Assembly (NCBI GenBank): GCA_903953055.1
Contig: CAJBIA010000008.1
Span: 19,791-83,790, forward strand
Length of the DNA: 64,000 nt
Source: an uncultured Methylophilaceae bacterium
GTDB taxonomy: Bacteria; Pseudomonadota; Gammaproteobacteria; Burkholderiales; Methylophilaceae
Direction: 5' to 3'
A program made the translations under genes and the position numbers. Under the pieces are notes generated by a model, which saw only the letters and a list, made by a program, of their open reading frames with translations, did not search any database and had not been told where the DNA came from. Shown piece after piece: positions 7,981-15,242 of this stretch (position 1 is the stretch's first letter; each line of letters starts with the position of its first letter).

Positions 7981-9009
7981 TTAATTAAGCGTGTATGGGA
8001 GTGGCTTAAACTGTAGCTGACTGTTTTTCCACATTGGAATTTCAGATGATGCTTCTGAGTGTTCGAGACGAATTTCAACTAAGACATCAACACCACCAGA
8101 GATGGCTGGGGCTACGCGCACAATCTGTCCAATCTGTTCCTCAAGATTTTTTAAGTGAATAGAATCCCCCGCATTGGGTATAGCATCTGTCGCTATATGA
8201 GCCAGTAGTGTCCGACGTTTTATTTTGCCTAGGTAATGCGTGCGAGCAACAATCTCTTGGCCTGTATAACAGCCTTTTTTGAAATTGATCCCATCGAGCG
8301 CATCTAAATTAATCATCTGCGGAACAAAAGCTTCCTGAGTGCCGGGAATTATTTCAGGAATTCCTGCTTGAATCTCTAAATAATCCCAAACTGGCTTACC
8401 TACTTTAGTGCAGCTTAATGACAGAGTTTCCCAAATGCGCTCTGCATGTTTCATGTTGGTATAAACATAGAATTTAGGGAGATCACCAATGAGTTTAATG
8501 ATCGTTGCATCTTCAACAGTCACAACTTGTTTTGCGGCTGTAGGAATTTCCTTAAAAAGATTAATAAGGACAATTTCTACATTTTGACCTGCAACACCAA
8601 AGCATAAAATGTCATTAGATTTGTCTGTGATGACTACTTTTGATCTTAATACGTACATTTTTAATCGCTTGATGATAGCCTCTAAAATATTTTTGGGCAT
8701 TTGTAGATGTAAGTGATCATGATGTGCAAAGGCTAAAAATAAAGCCAATAAACGTCCTTTTGGATTGCAGTAACCTGCATATTGGCTAATGCTTCCATCA
8801 AGTTGTTTGACGTCGTTGGTTAATTGCCCCTGCAGAAACGGTATAGCATCTTCACCGCTGACTTCTAAAATCCCAAAGTGGCTTAGCGTTGTTAGGACAT
8901 TGGTATTACCCACTGCAGCAAGTTCCTTTTTTGCATATCCAAACGATTGCAAAAGATCTTCTTGAAAAATTGCGCCTTGGGTAGTTAAAAAGTCATGCCA
9001 TTGATTCAT
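7981..9009 (-). CDS. ygfZ: Folate-binding protein YgfZ (iron-sulfur cluster maintenance)
   Basis: The 342-residue product belongs to the GcvT-like YgfZ family. The diagnostic K-G-C-Y-T-G-Q-E motif is present with Cys247, the residue known to matter in E. coli YgfZ, and the conserved FLQGQLTNDV segment is near residues 58-67. The family helps repair or assemble Fe-S enzymes such as MiaB in a folate-dependent way. It lies 53 bases downstream of mxaL on the same strand, so readthrough from the mxa operon is possible. It converges with ftsB with only one base between the stops. Confidence 0.93.
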   Translation of the reverse strand: MNQWHDFLTTQGAIFQEDLLQSFGYAKKELAAVGNTNVLTTLSHFGILEVSGEDAIPFLQGQLTNDVKQLDGSISQYAGYCNPKGRLLALFLAFAHHDHLHLQMPKNILEAIIKRLKMYVLRSKVVITDKSNDILCFGVAGQNVEIVLINLFKEIPTAAKQVVTVEDATIIKLIGDLPKFYVYTNMKHAERIWETLSLSCTKVGKPVWDYLEIQAGIPEIIPGTQEAFVPQMINLDALDGINFKKGCYTGQEIVARTHYLGKIKRRTLLAHIATDAIPNAGDSIHLKNLEEQIGQIVRVAPAISGGVDVLVEIRLEHSEASSEIPMWKNSQLQFKPLPYTLN

Positions 9010-9062: not shown

Positions 9063-10049
9063 TTAAGCTTTGCGTCTACGTCGCACCCAAATACTCAGCC
9101 ATTTAGAAAAACTGCCGATGGGTCTTTTGGGCAGATATGCAGTCAGTAAAAGCAGGCCTGCAATCGATGCAAGTATCCATTGAATATCATATGGAGCAAT
9201 ATCACGGCGAGCAGGTTTTTGTTTTTTCATTGCAGCAAGGATAGTTTGTAAGCTATCACCACGTACATAATCACCGCTGACCTGTTTAGAGATGTCTTTT
9301 AGATATTCTTCTTGCAGCTTGGATAAGAATCGGTCACCAGTTGCCCCAGCAACGTTGTTGTCACGAACACCAATATTGGCCTCTGAAATTTGTGCAATAC
9401 CTGGTTGCATCGCGAAACTATCGGCAGACCAGTAGCCGATCAGTTGATTCTTATCATCTAGTTTAGGAATAGCGGTCCCTTTTTCACTACCAATTCCTAC
9501 AAAAAGCCAGCCATTACCACCTTGAAAGTTAGTCAGATCTTTGGTGTTGAAGGCATGTAGTTTTGGGGCCTCTTCGCCGTCTGTAAAGTAAACGACTTGA
9601 GCTGGCTCTGGAAAAGCACGAATTACTCTAGCAAGCGTGAACATACTGTCGCGCAGTCGACTATTGCCTGACCAAGCGGTTCGCCAATCTAGATGATCTA
9701 TGGTGTCTTGAATTGCTGCATAATTACTACATACCTCAATTGGTGTGTAGAGTGCAGCAATACTCACCCCCGCAAATAAACCGATACTGACTCTTGTGCC
9801 ACAAGGCATGTTGGCAACAATGTGATGTAGCATATATTGCGTATAAGCAATGCGGCTTGTCGGCTTTCCTTCTAACGTCGTGTCTACCACGTTCATGCTT
9901 TGCGAAATATCAGCAACAAGTAAGTAACTATAAATGTTGCGTGGTAGGGGAATCGCTGGCTTAAATGCTGCGGCAATGAGCAATACAAAAGCGCTTGCTA
10001 ATAGAGCAGCGTCGCGACGATTGCGCAAGTAATTAAATACTTTGTTCAT
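9063..10049 (-). CDS. mxaL: Methanol dehydrogenase accessory protein MxaL (von Willebrand A)
   Basis: A 328-residue membrane-anchored VWA-domain protein. Hydrophobic segments flank the domain at about residues 15-34 and 285-305. The MIDAS motif DISQS at 47-51 and FTDGEE near 155 are visible. MxaA, MxaK and MxaL are needed for calcium insertion into methanol dehydrogenase in methylotrophs. It is the last gene of the mxaRSACKL series and starts one base after mxaK ends. Assignment rests on domain and gene order; the VWA domain alone would also fit BatA/BatB proteins. Confidence 0.82.
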   Translation of the reverse strand: MNKVFNYLRNRRDAALLASAFVLLIAAAFKPAIPLPRNIYSYLLVADISQSMNVVDTTLEGKPTSRIAYTQYMLHHIVANMPCGTRVSIGLFAGVSIAALYTPIEVCSNYAAIQDTIDHLDWRTAWSGNSRLRDSMFTLARVIRAFPEPAQVVYFTDGEEAPKLHAFNTKDLTNFQGGNGWLFVGIGSEKGTAIPKLDDKNQLIGYWSADSFAMQPGIAQISEANIGVRDNNVAGATGDRFLSKLQEEYLKDISKQVSGDYVRGDSLQTILAAMKKQKPARRDIAPYDIQWILASIAGLLLLTAYLPKRPIGSFSKWLSIWVRRRRKA

Positions 10050-10050
10050 A

Positions 10051-10605
10051 TTATGGAAGACCTACGGGAATGTTTCCCATAATCAGACCCGGTGAATCAG
10101 ACTCTCCAACACCTGGTGTTGGTGTGCCAGGCAATAATAGAATTAATCGGTCTAAATTATGACGAGTATCCCAATGGGTATTATCAAGGCGCACAGCTTG
10201 TTGATATAGATTTTTAGCTTGTCTTAATAGATATTCTGTTTCTTTTCCAACTTTCATGTTGGTCCCATTTAACGCTAAGCCGCGACGAAAAAATATGGTC
10301 GCCAAGTTATGCTGAATGGCTTCTTTTTGTTTTTTGTTAGCATGCTCTAATAGATGAGTAAAAAGCAAAGTGGACTCTTTGTAACGCTCATTTTTGGCAA
10401 GCCAATAAGCGGTTGCAAACTTAGCCTCAAAACTTTGCATATCTGTTTTAGGTGATTTAGCGTTCAAAATAGCCTCGTTAAACGCTTGTATTTGATGAAT
10501 GCGATTTATTTCGACGGCTGCGAAAGTTGCACTCACCATGGCTGAAATAATCAATATCCATGTGAGTTTTTTAGCATTAAGGATTTTAAATATATTGAGT
10601 GTCAT
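10051..10605 (-). CDS. mxaK: Methanol dehydrogenase accessory protein MxaK
   Basis: A 184-residue protein with an N-terminal membrane anchor (about residues 14-32) and a soluble part resembling TPR helices (YWLAKNERYKESTLLFTHLLEHA and AKNLYQQAVRLDNTHWDTRHNLD). It ends in a Pro/Gly-rich tail. It sits between mxaC and mxaL with gaps of 4 and 1 bases. The order and topology match MxaK, a partner of MxaL in calcium loading of methanol dehydrogenase. The sequence alone is not strongly diagnostic. Confidence 0.75.
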   Translation of the reverse strand: MTLNIFKILNAKKLTWILIISAMVSATFAAVEINRIHQIQAFNEAILNAKSPKTDMQSFEAKFATAYWLAKNERYKESTLLFTHLLEHANKKQKEAIQHNLATIFFRRGLALNGTNMKVGKETEYLLRQAKNLYQQAVRLDNTHWDTRHNLDRLILLLPGTPTPGVGESDSPGLIMGNIPVGLP

Positions 10606-10609
10606 TTGC

Positions 10610-11602
10610 TTAATCCCATGTTCTAACTTCTAAATATTTCACAACGAGTAATAGGCCTATCATCAATGCCGCGAGTAAAAAACATATTTGAGAAAAATCG
10701 TAGCCAGGAATTTGCTCGTGGTAGCGAATAGGTTTCTTTTCTTTTTGATTAATGTCTGCAATCGCAGCAGCTAATGATTTTGGATCATCTGCCTCATAGG
10801 CATGAAATGGTGAGTTTAATGTCTTGAAAAACTCATTCAGTTCAATTTGAGGGGGCAAAACGGCATCTTCAGGCGGGACATAGCTTGCATCAAAAATACT
10901 TAAACCACCAGGTTGTCTTAATACAATCCAATACAAGCCTATGTGTAAGCGATCTAACCAATCGCGAATCTTTTGTTGTGTGTCCGCATCAATACGGCCG
11001 CCACCATCCGATAGTAAAATCATTGCACGTGAGCCAGAATCTGGGACTTTATCGAAAAGACCGGCACCGCTTGTCATGCCACTCCCAATGTTGGTTTGGA
11101 ATAGGGCGTTACCAGCTGTCGCTTGGACGGCAGCTAAAATTGCTTCACGATTTTCGGTTAAGGGTAAAACATACATTGCCGAGTTGCTGAAGGTAATCAT
11201 GCCAAACATGTCATTTTGGCGAGACTTAACAAATTGAGTAATCAGCCGACTGGCTGCAACAGACTTAGTTTCAGCAACCTTGCCATTCGTATCGCCCCCA
11301 GAAAAAGGGTCATCCATACTGGCGCTGCGGTCTAAAACTAAAGCGATTTGAGCGCCCACGCCGATTCTCTCAATGCTTTGTTGTTGGCTATGTGGACTTC
11401 CTAGACCCAGGATAATAAAAAGTAAGGCTAATACCGCCAATACTTTAAGTAATAAGCCAATCAAGTCTGACAATCTGTCCTTGGGCAGCATCGCAACCCA
11501 TGAATACCGCTGTGTAAATGCCCGGTCTAGCACAAATGGCATCGCTGCTAAAGGAAGTAGCCAGAGCGCCCAAGGGGAGTTAAAGAAAACGTGAAAGTTC
11601 AT
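10610..11602 (-). CDS. mxaC: Methanol dehydrogenase accessory protein MxaC (von Willebrand A)
   Basis: The 330-residue product has two N-terminal hydrophobic stretches (about 11-25 and 47-68), a VWA domain with the MIDAS motif DRSAS at 91-95 and the LSDGGGRID segment near 200, and a C-terminal transmembrane helix. This BatA/B-like layout and its position between mxaA and mxaK identify MxaC. The family is thought to help form active methanol dehydrogenase, but its exact step is not known. It starts 3 bases after mxaA ends, so the two are in one operon. Confidence 0.8.
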   Translation of the reverse strand: MNFHVFFNSPWALWLLPLAAMPFVLDRAFTQRYSWVAMLPKDRLSDLIGLLLKVLAVLALLFIILGLGSPHSQQQSIERIGVGAQIALVLDRSASMDDPFSGGDTNGKVAETKSVAASRLITQFVKSRQNDMFGMITFSNSAMYVLPLTENREAILAAVQATAGNALFQTNIGSGMTSGAGLFDKVPDSGSRAMILLSDGGGRIDADTQQKIRDWLDRLHIGLYWIVLRQPGGLSIFDASYVPPEDAVLPPQIELNEFFKTLNSPFHAYEADDPKSLAAAIADINQKEKKPIRYHEQIPGYDFSQICFLLAALMIGLLLVVKYLEVRTWD

Positions 11603-11605
11603 GCC

Positions 11606-12634
11606 CTAAATCTTCTTCAAATTAGCTGGTTTTAGGCCGCGTTCACAATCGCGACATTGTTTGCAAAAACGCTTTAGCCAAACCAGGGAATTTTTATCAT
11701 GGGCACTCGTGTCTTGAGTATCAAAGAAAACTTTATGTGATAGCTCAAAGAATTGACCAAGCTCATTTTCAATAACTTTAAAGCTTGGCGAATGTGTTAG
11801 AAAATCACTGACGTTATCGCTGAACACACTGTATTTTGCTGTACTGTTAATTGCTTTGTGTAAGCATGTTAAGGCAGTCTTAAGGTCATCTGTATTTGTT
11901 GCTGAGAGTCCACGTAAATGCCGTCCGGCTTGTGCAAATGGCCTGCCCATAAATGGTAACCAAGCACGTGAGCCCAGAATATACAGTAAGCCTACTAGAC
12001 TTAGACCTAGCAAAATTAAGCTGGCGACAAGCTTTTCCTTTTCAGGGTAAGCTTGAAGCAAAATGGGCTGTCTTAATGGGCTCATGTCGTCTTCAATTTT
12101 AACTGCGCCAAAAACTGCCATTGGTGAAATTCTAAAATAGAACTCAGGTATCTTGTATTGCACTAAACCGTCCTTCGCTTCAGCTGAGGCGGGACCTTGA
12201 AATTTGATCACTTCTGCTGGCAATATTGCTGGCTTTACTACAGGAGCAGTTGTAAATATCTGATATGAAAGATGAATGACGTAACTAGTCTTGTCGTCAT
12301 TCTCTTTTTTTGTATGACTGATTTTACAAAGCTCAATGCCTGAAACTTGTCCTTGATAGCGATGTTCATAACCAACAATGGGCAAACTTGTTTCAATGAG
12401 TTTGTATGGTTTTTTGACGTCTAAGGCAATGGTGCGCTTTAGAATGTCGCCCATCAGGTAACCTACATTACGATCTGGGTTAATTTTACTTATCTTGACA
12501 ATACCTTCCGGGATATCAGGTGACGGCTCGTCGTTAGCAAACACTACAAAACTTTTGCTTAAAATAAAAGCGAAGACAAAAGTGAAGAGGTAAATGTTTG
12601 AAGATTTAATCAATTTATTCATTACGCATTTCAT
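11606..12634 (-). CDS. mxaA: Methanol dehydrogenase accessory protein MxaA
   Basis: A 342-residue protein with an N-terminal hydrophobic signal or anchor (about residues 13-33) and a second membrane helix near 200-218, leaving a periplasmic N-terminal part and a C-terminal cytoplasmic helical region with several Cys near the end (CKQCRDCE). MxaA is required for calcium incorporation into methanol dehydrogenase. The call depends mostly on its place between mxaS and mxaC with 2- and 3-base gaps and on the size and topology. Confidence 0.75.
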   Translation of the reverse strand: MKCVMNKLIKSSNIYLFTFVFAFILSKSFVVFANDEPSPDIPEGIVKISKINPDRNVGYLMGDILKRTIALDVKKPYKLIETSLPIVGYEHRYQGQVSGIELCKISHTKKENDDKTSYVIHLSYQIFTTAPVVKPAILPAEVIKFQGPASAEAKDGLVQYKIPEFYFRISPMAVFGAVKIEDDMSPLRQPILLQAYPEKEKLVASLILLGLSLVGLLYILGSRAWLPFMGRPFAQAGRHLRGLSATNTDDLKTALTCLHKAINSTAKYSVFSDNVSDFLTHSPSFKVIENELGQFFELSHKVFFDTQDTSAHDKNSLVWLKRFCKQCRDCERGLKPANLKKI

Positions 12635-12636
12635 TA

Positions 12637-13497
12637 TTAGGCCGCCACAAATTGGTGAAAGTATTCGGTTAAAGCATCGGAGTCAAAATCGCCTTCAACA
12701 AAGAAAGGCGGCATATCGAACTTCATCAATAAAGCTTCAAGTTCAATACGTCTTTCTTCAAAACTAGCAATGATATTGGCGCGCATTTCTTTGCGTAAAA
12801 ACAGTGTGCGTTTTTGCCCCGTTTCACAATCTGTAACGTTAGTGATACCAAATTCAGGCAAGTTTTTATATTCTGATGAATCCCAAAGCACAATGGGAAC
12901 AATGTAATGCTGCATCAGTAATGAAAGTGCTTCTTCAAGCTCATTAAGGGGCATGTGGAAGTCTGAAATTAAAAAGATTAACGAGCGTTCACGGGGTAAA
13001 TAGCGGTTAACATCTTTTAATCCCATGCTTCCAACTTGCTCAGGTTCAAAACTTTTTAATGCCGCGGTTAATTCTAAAGCTTGATGCGCCCTGAATGATT
13101 GAGTGCATACCCAATCCTCACGGACTACGTCATCAAAACCAATGAAGCCGAATGGGTCGCTATTATGGTATGCCGACATAGCAATCGCGCTAGCAATTTG
13201 ACTCGTTAATGCAACTTTACTTTGTTTGCTACCAAAGTTCATTGAGCCTGATAAATCTGCAAGAGCGAATACAGGGGTAGCGCTTTTTTGATTAAAAATA
13301 CGCACATAGACTTGCTCTAGTGGATCGCGCATGGTTTGCCGAATGTCAATGCGGCGGGGGTCTGGGTATGAAAGCAGTGTCGTGTGACCACGAAACTCCA
13401 TGCCCATCCCACGTTGTGTACTTGCGTGGCTTCCTGAGCGACGCCCACGTGAGCGCCACCCAATATGGTAGCTAAACTCTTTGATCTCAGTATGCAT
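12637..13497 (-). CDS. mxaS: DUF58-type protein MxaS
   Basis: The 286-residue product is a soluble DUF58/VWA-like protein. The family segment FRGHTTLLSYPDPRRIDIRQT is followed by FALADLSGSM, which resembles a MIDAS motif. DUF58 proteins pair with MoxR-type AAA ATPases, here encoded just upstream with a 21-base gap. In methylotrophs this pair opens the mxaRSACKL string. The presumed role is chaperone-like maturation of methanol dehydrogenase, inferred from the family. Confidence 0.82.
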   Translation of the reverse strand: MHTEIKEFSYHIGWRSRGRRSGSHASTQRGMGMEFRGHTTLLSYPDPRRIDIRQTMRDPLEQVYVRIFNQKSATPVFALADLSGSMNFGSKQSKVALTSQIASAIAMSAYHNSDPFGFIGFDDVVREDWVCTQSFRAHQALELTAALKSFEPEQVGSMGLKDVNRYLPRERSLIFLISDFHMPLNELEEALSLLMQHYIVPIVLWDSSEYKNLPEFGITNVTDCETGQKRTLFLRKEMRANIIASFEERRIELEALLMKFDMPPFFVEGDFDSDALTEYFHQFVAA

Positions 13498-13518
13498 ATT
13501 CAGCCTTGCCTAGGATTT

Positions 13519-14535
13519 TTAAGGCGCAGCTATCGCATTCACAATGCCTGTGAGCAATTCGCGCGCAATTTCTGTGCGGCGCATTTCATACACAGGGCTA
13601 AATACTATGCGGTGGGCAACGGTAGAATGAAAGACTGCATGTATGTCTTCAGGCAAAACTGAATCACGGTTGTTGAGCCAAGCATTTACGCGCGCGGCAC
13701 GAAGCATCATACTCATGCCACGAGGGCTTGCGCCTGCCAATACGAGACGATTCATATCAACGCCACTCACCTTCACGCCGTAAGCACTAGGTGTTTTTGT
13801 TGCACGCCATAAATTTAGCGCATATTGACGAAGTGTGGAACTTGCTTCAATTTTGTTTTGAACTAAAGCAGAGAATTCATTTAATTGATCAAACTGCAAA
13901 ATGTCTGCAGGAATGGTATTCACCAGAGCATCTACGTTATGAAATTTAGTATCAAACACTAATGATTCCATGATGGCATTGTCGTCAGGAACTACGATTG
14001 GTATTTCCATCATAAAACGATCACGTGCTGCAGACGGAATTTCGAAAGTCTCTTCTTTTTCAACCTGGTTACGATCGGCAAATACGAGCATGTGAGGGAA
14101 GTGATATTCTTTATTGAAAGCTGATAATGTGCGTTCAGCCATAACGCGAAGTAATAATGAGTGAACTTGTGGGCGTGCACGGTTAATTTCGTTGAAGAAG
14201 AATACTGATAAGTTCTCTCCAGACATTAATAATGGACCTGGACTTACGTGCGGTTTACCGTCTTCGCCAAGGTAAGTGTGATACACCAAATCGTTTGGCA
14301 TTAAATCAATCGTGCCTTCAATACGTTGATAACCCCCACCGATACAGCGCGTAAAAGCTCTTAATAATGTTGTTTTACCTACACCGACGTCACCTTCAAG
14401 CAGAACGTGGCCGCGAGAGAATATCGCTGTTGTAATTAAGCGAATAGGTGTTTGCTGGCCTACCACGACTTTATTGATTTCTGATTCTAAATTTTGCGCG
14501 TGTTGTCGCCAGTCGGTAAGTTGCTTGTCGCTCAT
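13519..14535 (-). CDS. mxaR: MoxR-family AAA+ ATPase MxaR
   Basis: A 338-residue AAA+ ATPase started at the internal ATG at 14535, preceded by a GGGAC ribosome site; the longer frame would add 19 unlikely hydrophobic residues. Walker A is GDVGVGKTT at 48-56 and Walker B is VFFFNEIN at about 111-118. Sensor and arginine-finger segments such as IPSAARDRFMMEI follow. MoxR ATPases act as chaperones for metalloenzymes and work with VWA/DUF58 proteins, encoded downstream. It is the first gene of the operon, behind a good promoter at 14593-14621. Confidence 0.85.
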   Translation of the reverse strand: MSDKQLTDWRQHAQNLESEINKVVVGQQTPIRLITTAIFSRGHVLLEGDVGVGKTTLLRAFTRCIGGGYQRIEGTIDLMPNDLVYHTYLGEDGKPHVSPGPLLMSGENLSVFFFNEINRARPQVHSLLLRVMAERTLSAFNKEYHFPHMLVFADRNQVEKEETFEIPSAARDRFMMEIPIVVPDDNAIMESLVFDTKFHNVDALVNTIPADILQFDQLNEFSALVQNKIEASSTLRQYALNLWRATKTPSAYGVKVSGVDMNRLVLAGASPRGMSMMLRAARVNAWLNNRDSVLPEDIHAVFHSTVAHRIVFSPVYEMRRTEIARELLTGIVNAIAAP

Positions 14536-14592
14536 GGACTTGTCCCGTAAGAAAGATAATGAAATTAAATAAGTGCAAAAAAACTGTAACAA

Positions 14593-14726: not shown

Positions 14727-15242
14727 ATGCAAAAAAAGAATAGCTTTAGCTACGAAGAGCTTTTGTCTTGCGGCCGTGGGGAGATGTTTGGTCCAGGAAA
14801 CGCGCAATTGCCGTTGCCCCCAATGTTGATGGTTGATCGTATAGTTGCTATTAACGAAGATGGCGGTGCTTATGGTCAAGGGCAGATTATTGCAGAGCTC
14901 GATATTAAACCTGATTTATGGTTCTTTGGATGTCATTTTGAAGGCGATCCAGTGATGCCAGGTTGTTTGGGTTTAGATGCGATGTGGCAATTGGTTGGAT
15001 TCTATTTGGGTTGGAAGGGCGGCCTCGGCCGTGGCCGCGCATTAGGTGCCGGTGAGGTTAAATTTAGTGGTCAAGTGTTACCAACAGGGAAAAAAATAAC
15101 CTATTACATCGATTTGAAGCGCGTTATTATGCGTAAATTGGTTATGGGTATTGCAGATGCTCGCATGGAATTAGATGGCCGTGAAATTTATGTTGCCAAT
15201 GACCTGCGTGTTGGCTTATTTACAAGTACAGAACATTTTTAA
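14727..15242 (+). CDS. fabA: 3-hydroxydecanoyl-ACP dehydratase/isomerase
   Basis: A 171-residue hot-dog-fold protein, the standard size for FabA. It dehydrates 3-hydroxydecanoyl-ACP and isomerises the product to cis-3-decenoyl-ACP, the branch point for unsaturated fatty acids. The catalytic segment [20 protein letters not shown] contains the active-site His and, further on, the Asp. It is followed by fabB after 33 bases, the usual pairing. It is divergent from the mxa operon. Confidence 0.97.

Follow-up and report, generated by a model that had tools for sequence, protein, structure and literature searches.

The six genes mxaRSACKL probably serve XoxF4 in organisms that lack MxaFI, their products presumably acting as an ATP-driven chaperone for folding or metal uptake. 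Co-occurrence makes XoxF4 the likely client, and we infer folding or metal insertion as the likely step. This proposal draws on the genes themselves, on how and where they are conserved, on their difference from the copies linked to mxaF, on the co-presence of xoxFJGG and pqqC, and on the lack of any sign of MxaI. In the model that we propose, the cytosolic MxaR ATPase would work with the DUF58 protein MxaS, and the two would couple to the membrane-anchored vWA proteins MxaC and MxaL, together with MxaA and MxaK. Together, at the inner membrane, they would use ATP as a chaperone does, aiding the exported PQQ enzyme XoxF4 in folding or metal uptake. The suggestion of a preliminary description of this DNA, that the retained genes mature another enzyme, is probable on the sequence data, XoxF4 being present and the search for MxaI empty.

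The cluster and its products

The window, by which we mean the whole stretch of 64,000 nucleotides analysed, derives from an uncultured Methylophilaceae bacterium. Reading of its open reading frames (ORFs) revealed mxaR, S, A, C, K and L, each an uninterrupted ORF of the minus strand. The six run in this order from 14535 to 9063 with intergenic gaps of 1-21 bp, a cluster as complete and tightly spaced as had been stated. The genes on either side lie outside the system: fabA (14727-15242, plus strand; fabA, 2.6e-92) is the divergent upstream neighbour and ygfZ (7981-9009, minus strand; CAF17_like_YgfZ, 1.2e-30) the downstream one. No homologue of mxaF, mxaJ, mxaG or mxaI was seen among the window ORFs, by reading them rather than by a dedicated search; on this point, as on the flanking genes, our reading agrees with the preliminary description. 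A scan for promoters and terminators gave no signal above that of shuffled sequence.

Hydropathy predicts transmembrane (TM) helices in MxaA, MxaC, MxaK and MxaL and none in MxaR or MxaS. The mxaR gene (13519-14535, minus strand, with an alternative TTG start also open at 14592) encodes a MoxR-family AAA+ ATPase (AAA_3, 1.1e-25; AAA_lid_2; AAA_5) with the Walker A motif GDVGVGKT and the Walker B motif FFFNEINRA. MoxR proteins usually carry Asp at the Walker B position where MxaR has Asn; the Asn-containing motif was identical in 78 of the 78 MxaR copies compared, in every class. The product of mxaS (12637-13497, minus strand) is a DUF58, vWA-like protein (DUF58, 1.2e-20) with a DxSxS motif. 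Both mxaC (10610-11602, minus strand; VWA_2, 2e-11; VWA) and mxaL (9063-10049, minus strand; VWA_2, 4.9e-8) encode membrane-anchored vWA proteins, BatA-like and BatB-like respectively, with matches to the corresponding NCBIfam models (2.3e-13 for BatA and 3.6e-6 for BatB) that fall below the cut-off.

The Pfam search gave no family for MxaA or MxaK. The former (11606-12634, minus strand) was named by position and by homology to the A genes of relatives, a homology that reaches beyond the closest group. The latter, a small protein (10051-10605, minus strand), was named by position and conservation, its homology to relatives' K genes reaching beyond the closest group in one paralogue class. For MxaA, hydropathy predicts an N-terminal signal or TM helix and a TM helix at about 195-225. 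In the AlphaFold2 model (pLDDT 81, pTM 0.44) the N-terminal helix is followed by a beta domain, probably periplasmic, then by a TM helix and, at the C-terminus, a helical domain. A structure search with MxaA retrieved nothing convincing from the PDB, the best TM-scores being about 0.2-0.4. MxaK has a single N-terminal TM helix by hydropathy and is possibly TPR-like, its matches to TPR all being non-significant.

A distinct paralogue and its place

Gene order in relatives, which the preliminary description had proposed to compare, was kept: 57 of the 58 loci sampled hold all six genes, collinear and on a single strand, and the 58th is cut by a contig end, so that the arrangement is no accident. 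Among loci of the window's kind, fabA lies divergently beside mxaR in 49 of 58, and in 48 of 58 ygfZ follows the cluster on its strand; this fabA-ygfZ place is kept across most genera. MxaS is 56-67% identical to copies in Methylophilus, Methylobacillus and Novimethylophilus. Against three same-genus genomes amino-acid divergence is low (dN 0.03-0.20); dS is saturated, so that the sizes of dN/dS are unreliable.

In ten relatives with multiple copies, the mxaS adjoining mxaI is only 30-41% identical to the window MxaS, which makes it the least similar copy or close to it, as against 58-72% for an unlinked copy. An IQ-TREE analysis of joined MxaR, MxaS and MxaC sequences united ten of the ten mxaF-linked clusters in one clade (SH-aLRT 100), far from the window copy, and in no relative sampled was a copy of the window's type mxaF-linked. 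By sequence, then, the window cluster is a paralogue distinct from the mxaF-linked copy, and the tree and gene order together reject its reading as an mxa operon minus its head. The puzzle of the missing mxaFJGI was misread in this one respect: the cluster does stand without mxaFJGI, but as a separate paralogue and not as a headless mxa operon. FastTree support for a single fabA-locus clade is weak (0.546), and IQ-TREE places a third paralogue inside that group, whose monophyly is therefore not shown.

In two genomes (G018, locus L097; G021, locus L098) about 12 kb separate an xoxF from the fabA-locus mxa cluster, and the listed coordinates suggest a similar proximity in several other genomes of their genera.

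Methanol oxidation genes in the source genome and the family

The search for xoxF elsewhere in the source assembly (1.67 Mb, 159 contigs), likewise proposed at the outset, was successful. A single XoxF4 gene on contig C5 is broken at the contig edge and overlaps contig C108, which carries on with xoxJ, two xoxG-like cytochrome genes and an NADH-dehydrogenase-like gene (ndh). The enzyme has the motif PHDEWDYDG, containing the lanthanide Asp motif (DYD), in contrast to PHDEWDFAG in mxaF-linked enzymes, and lanthanide XoxF enzymes head its matches in the PDB. As pqqC, the sole pqq gene searched, is also present, mxaRSACKL co-occurs in the source genome with both xoxFJG and a PQQ synthesis gene. 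The PQQ_2 and XoxF searches further recovered two proteins and gave no MxaF. One, encoded on contig C114 (L002:1267-3096), is a distant propeller protein, predicted to be a PQQ dehydrogenase, that shares 33% identity with XoxF and has the motif PHDVWGYD; the other is a PQQ_2-repeat protein, probably BamB. The search for MxaI (PF02315), positive in 38 relatives, returned 0 matches in this 89.6% complete genome. The idea that mxaF might lie elsewhere in the genome finds no support in these searches.

Beside xoxF (L011:2246-3012) lie an ORF for a small Cys-rich membrane protein and an ORF that is CusF-like by eye.

Across 120 Methylophilaceae genomes at least 80% complete, XoxF occurs in 119, mxaS in 118 and MxaI in 38. 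XoxF is the family's enzyme, in keeping with the earlier mention of XoxF-only Methylophilaceae. All 38 MxaI genomes possess mxaS, and a further 80 have mxaS without MxaI. Larger genomes often hold at least three mxaS copies, and mxaRSACKL is also kept in streamlined genomes of 1.1-1.4 Mb. Four single-contig genomes of 1.3-1.4 Mb (G014, G032, G043 and G060) each gave a single match for mxaS and a single XoxF-like one and were not MxaI-positive, making XoxF the sole such client seen there. In the XoxF-positive genome G020 (L125), only an mxaF-linked cluster was found, without a fabA-locus copy.

Two xoxF-positive genomes count against a strict need of XoxF for the cluster. G115 (98% complete; L107) and G082 (87%; L108), both fragmented assemblies, possess xoxFJGG-ndh and pqqC and gave no match to mxaS or mxaC; fabA has other neighbours there, and for mxaR, A, K and L the search covered the surroundings of fabA and xoxF. 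From these genomes, mxaRSACKL looks dispensable in some lineages, and the pair represent apparent natural knock-outs for comparison.

Probable client of the cluster and comparison with known systems

MxaACKL is held to insert calcium into MxaFI (PMC6028718), and methanol with La supports growth of strain JLW8, which has no mxaFI (PMC4109929). The latter source, published in 2014, already describes XoxFJG, PQQ genes and MxaRSACKL as core in Methylophilaceae even without mxaFI; mxaRSACKL without mxaFI is thus the normal, published state of the family and no anomaly. In the portions of published descriptions examined we found no mention of the position between fabA and ygfZ, of the split into paralogues or of the two apparent losses. 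Two reports count against the proposed role: in M. extorquens the entire mxa cluster is expressed less in the presence of La (PMC6414531), and a 2024 review states that XoxF does not require mxaACKLD or mxaRSEH (PMC11845868). Yet nearly every sampled XoxF-only Methylophilaceae genome retains the genes that this review considers XoxF not to need, very small genomes among them. Our search of the literature found no genetic test of mxaRSACKL for any XoxF-only Methylophilaceae. It is tempting to go further and regard the paralogue as a dedicated lanthanide-loading or folding machine for XoxF4 that a few lineages bypass; we offer this stronger form only tentatively, and, if true, it would contradict the view of XoxF as independent of such genes.

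MxaC and MxaL resemble the BatA and BatB proteins that general MoxR operons encode, which invites a different reading: the cluster would specify an envelope chaperone of general, MoxR/Bat-like type, with a main client here other than methanol dehydrogenase. Such a role would fit the two xoxF-positive assemblies in which neither mxaS nor mxaC was matched, and also the other PQQ propeller protein in the source genome. We nevertheless consider it rather unlikely, given that within the family homologous clusters follow immediately after mxaFJGI and that XoxF is the sole PQQ dehydrogenase match in some compact genomes. More doubtful still is a relic of a lost MxaFI system for which the need has gone. 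Although the genes are known for MxaFI and the 2024 review deems them unnecessary for XoxF, all six are intact and conserved, streamlined genomes retain them, and the window copy is a different paralogue from the mxaF-linked one; conservation in particular disfavours this reading. That mxaFJGI was simply missed in the source genome, 89.6% complete and broken into 159 contigs with xoxF itself cut at a contig end, is highly improbable, because MxaI occurs in 0 of 8 same-genus genomes, including the single-contig G019 at 99% completeness.

A chaperone role for XoxF4 remains our preferred reading, and the cluster can be set against three known systems. With the mxaFJGIRSACKLD operon of MxaFI it shares homologous R, S, A, C and L genes; however, that operon has mxaFJGI ahead of mxaR where the window has fabA, and its copies form the separate clade with divergent MxaS described above, such that neither gene order nor the tree places the window cluster within it. 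Bat and general MoxR-DUF58-vWA operons are built from the same types of part, namely an AAA+ ATPase, a DUF58 protein and a membrane vWA pair, but the window proteins match BatA and BatB weakly, and MxaA and MxaK belong to no family matched. By contrast, gene order, homology and co-occurrence with xoxFJG and pqqC all assign the cluster to the Methylophilaceae mxaRSACKL accessory clusters. These, as described in PMC4109929 and including those of the XoxF-only M. mobilis JLW8 and M. versatilis 301, comprise the same genes in the same order and family, likewise without mxaFJGI and alongside xoxFJG and pqq. The place of the extra clusters described there is not strictly conserved, whereas the window-type copy lies between fabA and ygfZ in most genera.
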